Source: Thiohalorhabdus denitrificans
Lineage (GTDB): Bacteria; Pseudomonadota; Gammaproteobacteria; Thiohalorhabdales; Thiohalorhabdaceae
Length of the DNA stretch: 64,000 nt
Direction: 5' to 3'
Assembly: GCF_001399755.1 (NCBI RefSeq)
Contig: NZ_LJCP01000008.1
Span: 62,001 to 126,000, forward strand
In this document: positions 35,024-40,933 of the stretch, piece after piece
How positions within the stretch are numbered: the stretch's first letter is position 1
How the letters are laid out: the number at the start of each line of letters is the position of its first letter
The notes under the pieces: generated by a model
The model's database searches: none
Seen by the model: the letters and a program-made list of their open reading frames with translations, nothing else
What the model was told of the DNA's origin: nothing
Translations under genes and position numbers: made by a program

Positions 35024-36780
<1,757 letters not shown>

Positions 36781-36809: not shown

Positions 36810-37064
36810 CTAGCTGGGATTGTTGGCCTCGACCATGGCCCGGTACTGCTCCGGGGTGAACGTCTTCACCTCCAGGGCGTGAAGCTCGCTCTTGAGCTCC
36901 TCGCCCAGGGCGCCGTAGACCTTCCGGTGCTGTTTGACCCGGGGCATGCCCTCGAATTCCTCGGCCACCACCAGCACGCCGAAGCGGTCCCCTTCGCCTT
37001 GGACGACCACCTGGGCCTCCGGCAGCTCGGCCTGGATCTTGGCCTTAACCGTTTCCGCGTCCAT
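36810..37064 (-). CDS. ibaG: BolA/IbaG-family protein
   Basis: An 84-residue BolA-like protein with the conserved HRKVYGAL (histidine ligand) and HALEVKTFTPEQY segments. It partners CGFS glutaredoxins in iron-sulfur trafficking. The position next to murA matches IbaG of E. coli. It is divergent from the Fur-box operon across 298 bp. Confidence 0.9.
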   Translation of the reverse strand: MDAETVKAKIQAELPEAQVVVQGEGDRFGVLVVAEEFEGMPRVKQHRKVYGALGEELKSELHALEVKTFTPEQYRAMVEANNPS

Positions 37065-37256
37065 TGAATCGCATTCCTTGAGTCATTTACTCGGATTTTC
37101 CAATCCTACCTGATTTCCCCCAGGGCGGGGAACCTTATATTACCGACTTCTTATGCCTTCCGGAAACGCCCCCCCTGGCCGCGTGGATGTTCTCCGGTTG
37201 CTGCCATCCCATTCGGATACCTTCACCCGGACCCGAGGGGCTTCCTACCCGGTTTC

Positions 37257-37339
37257 GAGAATTATTCTCATTTGTATTGACACCCGGGCGAGCCCCGGGT
37301 AGAGTTTTGCTTAAATTAAATGGTAAGCGTTCTCATTTA
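37257..37339 (+). promoter_or_regulatory. Sigma-70-like promoter flanked by two Fur-like boxes
   Basis: TTGACA (37277-37282), a 17-base spacer and TAGAGT (37300-37305) form a good promoter. A GAGAATTATTCTCATTTG box (37257-37274) abuts the -35, and GGTAAGCGTTCTCATTTAA (37322-37340) lies just after the start site. Both match the Fur consensus at about 12 and 10 of 19 positions. The spacer itself holds an ACCCGGG/CCCGGGT repeat. Iron repression of the porin operon is inferred. Bases 37065-37256 show nothing else clear. Confidence 0.65.
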
Positions 37340-37362
37340 ATACCCCACAAAGGAGAACCCGC

Positions 37363-38676
37363 ATGCGCAAGGTACCCGCGATCATGGCCTCGGCCCTGGC
37401 CGCCTCGGGCCTCGCCCTGCCCGCCCAGGCCCAGGACAGCGCCGACCAGCAGCGGCTGGAGGAGCTGGAGCGGAAGGTGGACATCCTCTCCGAGGAGATC
37501 GAAGGCCAGCGCCGCGAAGGCCTCGTCTCCGAGGAGTACGACTACCAGCCCGCCTACGGAGTCGGACCCGCCGGCGCCAAGATCTACTCCGTGGACCAGG
37601 GCCTGTCCATCGGCGGCTACGGCCACGGCTTCTACAAGAACTCCTCCATCGACGGCGCCGACGAGACCGACTTCTACCGCCAGATCTTCTACTTCGGCTA
37701 CCGCTTCAACGACTGGATCCTACTCAACACCGAGATCGAGATCGAGCACGTCGAAGAGATCTACGTGGAGTTCGCCTACCTGGACTTCCTCCTTCACGAA
37801 AAGGCAAACCTGCGCGCCGGCATGATGCTGTCGCCACTGGGCTTGGTGAACGAGATCCACGAGCCGCCGACGTACTTCGGCAACATCCGCCCCGAGGTGG
37901 AGAAGCGCATCATCCCCACCACCTCCCGGGAGAACGGCGTGGGCCTGTGGGGCAACCTCACCGACACCCTGGAGTACCGGCTCTACGTGCAGAACAGCTT
38001 CAACGCCATTAACGGTAATGGTGAGTCCACCATCGGCGCGGGCGACATCCGGGGCGTGCGCCAGAAGGGCGCCGAGGCTCAGGCCGACGACCTGGCCGTC
38101 ACCGGGCGTCTGGACTGGAAGCCGATTCCGGGCGTGATCCTGGGCGGCTCCTTCTGGAGCGGCGACATGGGCCACGAGCAAACATTATTCGCAGACGGTC
38201 AAGGCCCCGACTCAGACAATCCCAACCCCCTTGGAAGCCCCGACGTGCACATGGACCTCTACGAGGCCCACGCCCAGTACAAGCGCCACGGCTGGTGGCT
38301 GCGGGGCATGTTCGCCCAGGCCAAGATCGACGACACCCAGGCGCTCTCCGACTCGCTCGGCAGCGGCGTGAGCGACACCATGACCGGCTGGTATGCTGAG
38401 GCGGGCTACGACATCATGCCGCACATCGCCGACCTCCCCGAGCAGTCGCTGTATCCCTGGGTGCGCTACACCGACCTGGACACCAACTCCGACGTGCCCT
38501 CGGGCTACCCCGAGGACCCGGCCCAGGACCGCGTCATCACCGAGGCCGGCCTGCACTACATGCCCCACCCCAACGTGGCGGTGAAGGCCGAGGTCAAGAT
38601 GTTCAACAGCGAAGCACCGGCCGAGGACGCGAACAACCAGACCGAGTACCTGGTGGGTATCGGCTATAACTTCTGA
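37363..38676 (+). CDS. Outer-membrane porin-like beta-barrel protein
   Basis: A 437-residue secreted protein. It has a signal peptide (1-24, ending AQAQ), a short coiled coil (about 27-50: RLEELERKVDILSEEIEGQ), then many alternating beta strands, and a C-terminal Phe (GIGYNF) typical of outer-membrane barrels. The AAGGAG site is seven bases before the ATG. It is the first gene of a possible three-gene operon under two Fur-like boxes, so iron uptake is suggested. The substrate is unknown, and it is not a TonB-type receptor (no plug domain). Confidence 0.82.
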   Translation: MRKVPAIMASALAASGLALPAQAQDSADQQRLEELERKVDILSEEIEGQRREGLVSEEYDYQPAYGVGPAGAKIYSVDQGLSIGGYGHGFYKNSSIDGADETDFYRQIFYFGYRFNDWILLNTEIEIEHVEEIYVEFAYLDFLLHEKANLRAGMMLSPLGLVNEIHEPPTYFGNIRPEVEKRIIPTTSRENGVGLWGNLTDTLEYRLYVQNSFNAINGNGESTIGAGDIRGVRQKGAEAQADDLAVTGRLDWKPIPGVILGGSFWSGDMGHEQTLFADGQGPDSDNPNPLGSPDVHMDLYEAHAQYKRHGWWLRGMFAQAKIDDTQALSDSLGSGVSDTMTGWYAEAGYDIMPHIADLPEQSLYPWVRYTDLDTNSDVPSGYPEDPAQDRVITEAGLHYMPHPNVAVKAEVKMFNSEAPAEDANNQTEYLVGIGYNF

Positions 38677-38703
38677 GCCCGGCCGCATAGCGGGCAATGC
38701 GAG

Positions 38704-38726
38704 CACGCCCGGCCCCGCCGGGCGTG
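38704..38726 (+). promoter_or_regulatory. Intercistronic hairpin after the porin gene
   Basis: A perfect 10-bp stem, CACGCCCGGC / GCCGGGCGTG with a CCC loop, lies in the 73-bp gap between the porin and the FMN-protein gene. No U-tract follows. It may limit readthrough or protect the porin mRNA end, giving more porin than downstream product. Confidence 0.5.
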
Positions 38727-38749
38727 TACCTATTGGGAGGATCCAGCCA

Positions 38750-39316
38750 ATGGCGAACCGAACGAGGCTGAGCCGGCTGCCGGCCGCCCTGCCCCTGGTT
38801 TTGGCGCTGCTGGTGGGCGGCCTTTCCGCCGGCCGCGCAGAGGTGCTGATGGGCAAGGAGGAGGCGCTGGCCGCCGGCCTGCCGGGGGCGGCGGAGGTGG
38901 AGAAGGAGACCCTGTATCTCTCCGAGGAGGAGCGTGCGGAGATCCAGGAGCGCGCCGACGCCAAATTGGAGAGCCGGCTGTTCACGGTCTACAAGGGCCT
39001 GGACGGCGACACCGTCACCGGCTACGCCTTCATCGACACGCGCACCATCCGCACCAAGCCCGCCACCTTCATGGTGGTCCTGAGCCCGGAGGGCAAGGTC
39101 CGCCAGGCCCGTGTGCTGGCCTGGGAAGAGCCGCCGGAATACAAGCCCGGTGAGCGCTGGCTGGCCCAGTTCGAGGGCCACGGCCTGGAGCCGCACACCC
39201 GGCTGGGCGGCGAGATCCAGTCCATGAGCGGCGCCAGCCTTACCTCCCGGACCCTTACCGACGGCGTGCGCCGGGCCCTGGCCGTGCACACGGTCAAGCT
39301 GGCGGAGTACCGCTGA
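38750..39316 (+). CDS. Exported FMN-binding domain protein
   Basis: A 188-residue protein with a signal peptide (about 1-29) and a C-terminal FMN_bind domain. The covalent flavin site is probably SGASLTS (about residues 160-166), where the fourth position is Ser where Thr is more usual, as in RnfG- and NqrC-type proteins. It would carry a phospho-linked FMN in the periplasm, attached by an ApbE enzyme that is not in the window. GGGAGG lies before the ATG. The next gene starts at the following base. Confidence 0.8.
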   Translation: MANRTRLSRLPAALPLVLALLVGGLSAGRAEVLMGKEEALAAGLPGAAEVEKETLYLSEEERAEIQERADAKLESRLFTVYKGLDGDTVTGYAFIDTRTIRTKPATFMVVLSPEGKVRQARVLAWEEPPEYKPGERWLAQFEGHGLEPHTRLGGEIQSMSGASLTSRTLTDGVRRALAVHTVKLAEYR

Positions 39317-39826
39317 ATGCGCTTCACCGTCACCGGCGAGCAGCGCAAGAACGACTTCCTGCGCACCGTGATCCTGCTGTTCCTCGGCTACATCCTGCTG
39401 CACTGGGTGAGCAACGGCGCCATGTACTTCCTCAACATGACGCTCACCTACGACTCGGTGGTGCACTACTACCTGGGCAACCCCGACGAGTTCAGCAAGC
39501 CCCGCAGCTACGAGGGCATGCTGGAGGTGGCCCACTTCCACCTGTTCGCCATGGGAATCCTGCTCATCACCCTGGTCCATCTCATGCTGTTCGCGCCGCT
39601 GTCGGACCGGGCCAAGCAGATGGGCATCTGGCTGCCGTTCCTGTTCGCCGTGGGCAACGAGGGCGCCGGCTGGCTGGTGCGCTTCGCCGCCCCGGAGTTC
39701 GCCTACCTGAAGATCGTCACCTTCCTGGGCCTGGAGCTGAGCCTGCTGTGGGTCATGGGGGTGACCATGTGGTCCCTGGCCACCAACCGGCGCGGCGGCT
39801 ACCGGGTGCGCACCACCTCCGGCTGA
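39317..39826 (+). CDS. Four-helix membrane protein, possible b-haem carrier
   Basis: I do not recognise this 169-residue family. Helices lie near residues 16-39, 73-93, 98-117 and 124-148. His75 and His88 sit 13 residues apart in helix 2, a spacing used for haem b ligands, and His29 and His73 are also in or next to helices. It starts directly after the FMN-protein stop. A membrane electron carrier feeding the periplasmic flavin is an inference. Plain structural membrane protein is the alternative. Confidence 0.75.
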   Translation: MRFTVTGEQRKNDFLRTVILLFLGYILLHWVSNGAMYFLNMTLTYDSVVHYYLGNPDEFSKPRSYEGMLEVAHFHLFAMGILLITLVHLMLFAPLSDRAKQMGIWLPFLFAVGNEGAGWLVRFAAPEFAYLKIVTFLGLELSLLWVMGVTMWSLATNRRGGYRVRTTSG

Positions 39827-39905
39827 GACGGCCACGGGCGCCAACCGCGGAGACGCGGAGAGCGCCGAGGGGAAACACCAGGGACAACGGCGCCGGGAGC
39901 GGGAT

Positions 39906-39974
39906 TGTGGGAGCGGCTACCAGCCGCGACTTCCCCTAGCTCCCGTTTATCGCGGTCGCGGACCGCTCCCACAG
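39906..39974. repeat. REPIN-like palindrome 1
   Basis: Two REP arms in inverse orientation: TGTGGGAGCGGCTACCAGCC at the left and CGGACCGCTCCCACA at the right. The inner arms also pair. The pattern matches the GTGGGAGCGG REP sequences common in gammaproteobacteria. Confidence 0.75.
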
Positions 39975-40018
39975 GGGCGCGGAGGACGGCAACGGCGGTG
40001 AATGCTGGGGTCAGGCTA

Positions 40019-40094
40019 TTGTAGGAGCGAAGGTTTCCGCCGCGACAATTGCCCAAATAAGCCGAGGTCGCGGCGGGCGCCGCCGCTCCTACAG
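40019..40094. repeat. REPIN-like palindrome 2
   Basis: Left end TTGTAGGAGCG and right end CGCCGCTCCTACA, with a CGCCGCGAC / GTCGCGGCG pairing inside. It belongs to the GTAGGAGCGG family and lies 44 bp from palindrome 1. Confidence 0.75.
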
Positions 40095-40162
40095 GAGGCT
40101 CCGATCCGGATTCCTGTTTGCCTGCTCCGCAGTCTCCGCGCCTCCTCGGTCCCCCCGGGAGA

Positions 40163-40933
40163 CTAGCTCCGCATCTTGTAGCCCGTGCCCAGCATCCACA
40201 ACGCCGCCGCCGAGAGCAGCACCAGGAAGCCCACCACGAAGGCGAAGCTGAAGGCCAGGGAGACGTCCGAGTGGCCGATGAAGCCCGCCCGGAAGCCATC
40301 GATCATGTAAAAGAAGGGGTTGAGGTGGGAGACGCCGCGCCAGAAGGCGGGCAGGTCGTTGATGGAGTAGAACACCCCGGAAAGGAAGGACAGGGGCACC
40401 ACGAAGAAGTTGGTGAAGGCGGCGATCTGGTCGAACTTCTCCGCCCAGATGCCGGCGATGACGCCGAACGCGCCCATCACCGAGCTGGCCAGGAACGCGA
40501 ACAGCAGGATGGCGCCCAGGTGGTCCAGGCTCAGGTCCACGAAGAAGATGGCCACGATGTAAACGCTCACCCCCACCAGCATGCCCCGGATGGCTGCGGC
40601 CAGCACGAAGGCCAGGTAGAACTCCAGGCTCGACAGGGGCGGCAGCAGGATGAAGACCACGTTGCCGGTGACCTTGGACTGGATCAGGCTCGACGAGCTG
40701 TTGGCGAAGGCGTTCTGGATGATGGACATCATCATCAGGCCGGGCACCAGGAACTCCGTGTACGACACCCCCGGGTAGACGTTGACCCGGTCCTCCAGCA
40801 CGTAGCTGAAGATGAGCAGGTACAGGAGGGTGGTGACCATGGGGGAGAACACGGTCTGTACCCCCACCTTCCAGAAGCGCATCACCTCCTTGCGCAGCAG
40901 GGTCAGGAAGCCGGTGAGGTTGAACTCCATCAT
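40163..40933 (-). CDS. ABC-2 type transporter permease (YadH-like)
   Basis: A 256-residue, six-helix permease of the ABC-2 family. It has an N-terminal cytosolic helix (LRKEVMRFWKVGVQTVF), the central FLVPGLMMMSIIQNAF block and LSGVFYSINDLP. It pairs with the ATPase just upstream, overlapping its stop codon. An exporter is likely, but the substrate is unknown. The ATGs at 40933 and 40930 are both possible. Confidence 0.88.
   Translation of the reverse strand: MMEFNLTGFLTLLRKEVMRFWKVGVQTVFSPMVTTLLYLLIFSYVLEDRVNVYPGVSYTEFLVPGLMMMSIIQNAFANSSSSLIQSKVTGNVVFILLPPLSSLEFYLAFVLAAAIRGMLVGVSVYIVAIFFVDLSLDHLGAILLFAFLASSVMGAFGVIAGIWAEKFDQIAAFTNFFVVPLSFLSGVFYSINDLPAFWRGVSHLNPFFYMIDGFRAGFIGHSDVSLAFSFAFVVGFLVLLSAAALWMLGTGYKMRS

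Follow-up and report, generated by a model that had tools for sequence, protein, structure and literature searches.

An operon of three genes in Thiohalorhabdus denitrificans encodes an outer-membrane porin, an exported FMN_bind protein and a four-helix inner-membrane protein, and it appears to be controlled by Fur. We consider it somewhat more probable than its opposite that this is an iron-starvation operon delivering electrons to the periplasm, where Fe(III) would be reduced via a route of porin, flavin and membrane protein. The operon lies in a window of 64,000 nucleotides, which is the whole stretch of DNA analysed. The original prediction had proposed such an iron-starvation pathway. Its cassette, its Fur-type regulation and its electron-carrier role are largely upheld by gene conservation, by the boxes and by slot replacement, whereas the paired His helices that it expected are not found.

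Two Fur-like boxes flank the promoter of the operon, all on the plus strand. Box 1 (CGAGAATTATTCTCA, 37256..37270) lies directly upstream of the -35 element of a sigma-70 promoter, TTGACA-N17-TAGAGT (37277..37305), and box 2 (TGGTAAGCGTTCTCA, 37321..37335) lies 3' of the -10 element. Scored against TGAKAATNATTMTCA, the boxes reach 13/14 and 11/14, respectively. Box 1 has the top plus-strand Fur score within the 64-kb window, and the best Fur score was never matched in 500 shuffles of the 400 upstream bases. The promoter scan returned TTGACA-N17-TAGAGT as the sole promoter-like site across 37065-40170 (0.4 expected). Scoring and scan thus confirm the two boxes and the good promoter noted earlier. 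The porin gene (37363..38676, plus strand, 437 aa) encodes a signal peptide, a short coiled coil and a 16-strand barrel. It is followed on the same strand by the gene of an RnfG-like, exported FMN_bind protein (38750..39316, 188 aa) and by that of the four-helix protein (39317..39826, 169 aa), the proposed electron carrier. Direct reading and the listing of open reading frames agree with the predicted gene content, including the SGASLTS site of the FMN_bind protein and the abutting four-helix gene, whose ATG follows the FMN_bind stop codon with a zero-base gap. Between the trio and convergent ABC transporter genes, two imperfect inverted repeats with arms of 24 and 34 nt and a REP-like look occur at 39906-40100. 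The genes ibaG (36810-37064) and grxD (36472-36780) are divergent from the porin operon, as had been read from the sequence. A functional link between them and the trio was considered and dropped; the adjacency is not used as evidence because it is found only in the window genus.

The second protein of the operon is a predicted covalent flavoprotein of the RnfG/NqrC type. It matches Pfam FMN_bind with 29.7 bits (cut-off 22), and its family profile finds RnfG in the PDB (9eri, E 1.7e-8; 7zc6, E 1.1e-4). SGASLTS corresponds to residues 160-166, with SGAS at 160-163 and Ser163 as the predicted FMN acceptor. SGAS fits the pattern [ST]GA[ST]; the motifs of the relatives' FMN_bind proteins are SGAT, VGAT, VGST and MGST. 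The SGA[ST] motif of the profile aligns on TGST/TGAT of RnfG, the 9eri protein having TGST. The window genome contains three FMN_bind genes and a single ApbE (G000:C6:241233, 236 bits), which is encoded away from the operon. Flavinylation is further supported because apbE adjoins the cassette in relatives: it lies directly downstream in four loci (L005, L006, L007, L008).

These relatives were found by searching with the membrane protein alone as the query. They come from the window genus, Nitrococcus, Methylovulum, the genome G528 and metagenome-assembled genomes labelled Binatota, Wallbacteria, Myxococcota and Desulfurellaceae; the latter labels are the depositors' names, and gene transfer or misbinning might account for part of the spread. 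With the exception of the nearest genome, their membrane proteins are about 50-76% identical to that of the window. Plasmid records hold no relative. In all 11 loci, FMN_bind is directly upstream of the membrane protein and preceded by the porin, so that the trio is a conserved cassette, with gene content and order unchanged. The contig of L004 carries only the C-terminal part of the porin, and a small lipoprotein-like gene intervenes between porin and FMN_bind in G528.

Fur-box conservation, which had been proposed as a check, was observed in seven of the nine loci that reach upstream of the porin. The scores against TGAKAATNATTMTCA are 14/14 in L005 and L008, 13/14 in the window and L006, 12/14 in G001 and G528 and 11/14, twice, in L002. 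The box is weak in L007 and not above chance in L003. As a control, 22 haem-c relatives of the membrane protein score 8-11. G001, L003 and L006 have sigma-70-like promoters close to the boxes, and L002 a weaker one. With a box beside the promoter and conserved in relatives, the operon is, on sequence grounds, a predicted member of the Fur regulon. Moreover, iron genes occur in the surroundings: a fur gene upstream in L007, and ferritin and a Peripla_BP_2 protein downstream of the cassette in L005.

Judging by its sequence, the four-helix protein represents an unannotated and undescribed membrane protein family. It has no Pfam match, no NCBIfam match above cut-off and no PDB sequence match, and by the same three comparisons it shows no homology to PepSY, MsrQ, DUF4405 or FezC. 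The AlphaFold model, behind which stand nine sequences only, has long helices at 13-41, 65-90, 97-123 and 126-156 (mean pLDDT 77) and no fold match in the PDB. The protein contains His at 29, 50, 73, 75 and 88. His73 and His75 are invariant in 36/36 aligned relatives, as are Tyr52 and Lys100; His88 is invariant in 11/11 trio-type proteins and in that type only, and an acidic residue at 114/115 is conserved. The pair His75/His88 pointed out beforehand is thus present and conserved in trio-type homologues, and His73, equally invariant to His75, has to be added to it. All invariant His lie on helix 2, and neither the model nor the alignment places conserved His on facing membrane helices, so that paired His helices within one monomer are not supported. 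A haem would consequently need a homodimer or another ligand. We infer an N-in topology, with His73/His75 toward the periplasm and His88 toward the cytoplasm, for two reasons: the termini are basic, and the haem-c insert seen in distant relatives has to face the periplasm. The VAHFH of helix 2 has a likeness to helix X of haem-copper oxidases; it was set aside as coincidence, as the spacing of later residues misfits and there is no profile or fold match.

The strongest argument for the four-helix protein as a membrane electron carrier is the replacement of its gene by others in the same slot. A second search used the porin and FMN families as queries. Homologous porin-FMN pairs also occur without the four-helix family in other Gammaproteobacteria. 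In L125, L126 and L127, the next gene after the pair encodes PepSY_TM (42-59 bits; cut-off 28.8). In L123 and L124, the pair is followed by apbE and then by a four-helix protein with weak likeness, below cut-offs, to DUF4405 or cytochrome b561. Haem b binding has been demonstrated for members of the PepSY and DUF4405 classes, and models of FezC and MsrQ have homodimeric haem sites (PMC11334425). The four-helix gene of the window thus occupies a membrane-carrier slot beside flavinylation genes, and its family probably plays, by analogy, the same part as the haem-b classes. The carrier role assigned to the third protein is supported because PepSY_TM or DUF4405-like proteins stand in for it next to porin and FMN genes that are homologous to those of the window. 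Similar FMN-apbE-four-helix clusters were seen in L128-L131 (L128 and L131 assigned partly by sequence resemblance). L129-L131 have barrels other than the homologous porin, which are of the DUF6662 type in L129 and L131. Fur-like boxes, some of them weak, lie 5' in L123, L124, L126, L128, L129 and L131. The clusters of barrel, FMN_bind, ApbE and small four-helix cytochrome-like protein in L123 and L128-L131 resemble a sister cassette.

In the tree of the membrane protein, the trio type forms one supported side. Profile searches extend to two further kinds. Type B, in the same phylum, comprises 250-residue proteins in which a CxxCH insert separates helix 1 from helix 2; type C is a small group that has a Met/His-rich loop. 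L013-L064 (e.g., L028:1090-1800, L068:5370-6197) hold unannotated 250-residue proteins, distantly related to that of the window, in which one helix is followed by a CxxCH domain in the periplasm and then by three more helices with HxH. Such type B-like proteins are common in two families that do not belong to the class of the window (f40, f60) and turn up here and there among Gammaproteobacteria. At L072:3352-4725 lies an exported protein that has no Pfam match, carries a single CxxCH at its N-terminus and is perhaps a haem-barrel fusion; a CusA-type gene and a haem-c relative of the membrane protein are close by. The haem-c-insert relatives were rejected as members of the same cassette, as they have neither the operon nor Fur boxes.

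These relatives bear on a different, rather unlikely explanation, namely that the flavin cassette is an iron-sparing carrier replacing a haem-c version in a periplasmic redox task other than iron uptake, much as flavodoxin replaces ferredoxin. In the haem-c relatives, which have no Fur boxes, the haem domain links helix 1 to helix 2, just where the flavin protein would be at work; G528 carries both versions of the membrane protein. Swapping of flavins and cytochromes has also been described (PMC8238504). A carrier swap, however, would not need the porin that is always in the cassette, and the haem-c version lies outside such an operon. Furthermore, the window genome has the trio version only, by sequence and profile search, and the adjoining ferritin and Peripla_BP_2 protein in L005 speak for iron.

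Type C relatives are found next to metal-transport genes. L071 adjoins genes of the CbiM/CbiQ/CbiO type, named by sequence resemblance, and L073 adjoins NikR (by resemblance) and DUF4198 (by Pfam), with no clear NikR-type site detected at L073. The neighbouring protein is FMN_bind-like by eye, without a Pfam match or a flavinylation motif. The combination of a Met/His-rich membrane protein and an FMN_bind-like protein beside metal ECF or NikR-like/DUF4198 genes is noted for L071 and L073:5156-8293 as an observation of its own.

Could the four-helix protein itself be a Fe2+ permease or a permease subunit? The porin would then admit iron, the flavin would reduce it and the HxH protein would import Fe(II). 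HxH, Lys100 and the acidic residue at 114/115 are conserved, and the Met/His-rich-loop subgroup sits in ECF metal-transport operons. A transporter survey that covered FTR1, Nramp and FeoB found neither of the first two in the window genome, which is rated 99.9% complete, and no evident FeoB (best match 61 bits, in a 301-residue frame). Nevertheless, electron transfer is what the haem-c subgroup suggests, and sister cassettes fill the slot with cytochrome-type proteins, not permeases, which makes a permease improbable. Very doubtful, in our view, is a bolder combination in which the HxH four-helix protein founds a metal-linked redox superfamily whose periplasmic partner can be exchanged among three (a covalent-flavin protein, a haem c built into the protein, or a Met/His-rich loop by metal ECF transporters) and here both feeds a ferric-reducing flavin and passes Fe(II) inward.

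The porin is conserved among the trio relatives. AlphaFold models it with 16 strands (mean pLDDT 63), and Foldseek matches it to OmpC/OmpF-type porins, with E down to 2.5e-14; Pfam matches are weak only. With its signal peptide and modelled barrel, it is predicted to be a general porin. The family is widespread (85/369 Gammaproteobacteria), and its commonness means that it tells nothing on iron by itself. Entry of Fe(III) through the porin is plausible from the context. The breadth of the family, and the window porin, in which no metal-binding signature was seen, would also suit reduction of another porin-admitted substrate, such as a siderophore ligand or an oxidised compound, organic or of sulfur, by a cassette merely regulated by Fur; flavinylated proteins indeed serve many acceptors (PMC8238504). 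On the other side, the cassette encodes no substrate-specific oxidoreductase, and distant relatives again show Fur-type control and iron genes. We regard this reading as quite unlikely.

For the preferred reading, iron reduction, the following sequence of events is proposed. When iron is scarce, Fur would leave both boxes and the operon would be transcribed. The four-helix protein would be reduced by the quinol pool or by a different donor in the membrane and would pass the electrons on via haem b held by the His of helix 2 (His73/75 on the periplasmic side, His88 on the cytoplasmic side), probably as a homodimer. The electrons would reach the periplasmic protein, to whose Ser163 the ApbE encoded away from the operon would have joined FMN. 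Once reduced, this flavin would in turn reduce Fe(III), free or chelated, admitted through the co-expressed porin. We infer the haem, the dimer, the topology, the donor and Fe(III) as the acceptor. Several points count against this reading: the lack of a second helix with an invariant His and of a fold match, the window genome without FTR1, Nramp and evident FeoB, the chance-level box of L003 and the weak one of L007, and the type C group in Co/Ni-type ECF operons, where iron reduction makes no sense. In its favor, flavinylation clusters have been tied to iron uptake and Fur (PMC8238504), and a link between flavinylation and iron/Fur is described in Caulobacter (PMC3751524).

Flavinylation-based electron export tied to iron uptake is known, but few membrane carriers have been recognised. 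A description of a membrane carrier working with an outer-membrane porin was not found, and the open-access papers searched contain no porin-FMN-membrane protein trio under Fur. The small unannotated family, which replaces cytochrome-type proteins in the slot, is a testable candidate for a further carrier. Fur-boxed cassettes of porin, flavin protein and cytochrome appear recurrent in Gammaproteobacteria and beyond. If iron reduction is true, porins would serve reductive iron acquisition more widely than is currently assumed.

The trio shares features with several known systems. RnfG/NqrC-type FMN_bind proteins have the domain and the flavinylation motif in common with the window protein, whose operon, in contrast, holds no other Rnf/Nqr subunit and whose motif is SGAS, not SGAT. 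The flavinylated MsrQ-like and NapH-like systems likewise join a transmembrane carrier to an FMN-binding domain (PMC8238504); the window membrane protein, however, is of a different family, and the word "porin" is absent from that paper. DUF4405/FezC cytochromes are small His-containing membrane proteins linked to apbE (PMC11334425). Homodimeric haem binding was proposed for FezC, and DUF4405-like proteins occupy the slot in L123 and L124, but homology is not detectable and the invariant His of the window protein are on one helix only. The flavinylation-associated PepSY-like systems, in which PepSY_TM occurs with ApbE, DUF2271 and DUF4198, are Fur-repressed in Shewanella and Caulobacter. The window differs from them in a membrane protein without PepSY_TM homology (no Pfam match), in a flavin domain that is FMN_bind and not DUF2271, and in an outer-membrane partner that is a general porin and not a TonB receptor. 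Nonetheless, both have a Fur-linked operon, a periplasmic flavinylated protein (predicted here) and an inner-membrane carrier, and in L125-L127 it is PepSY_TM that follows the homologous porin and FMN genes, in the slot of the window's third protein.
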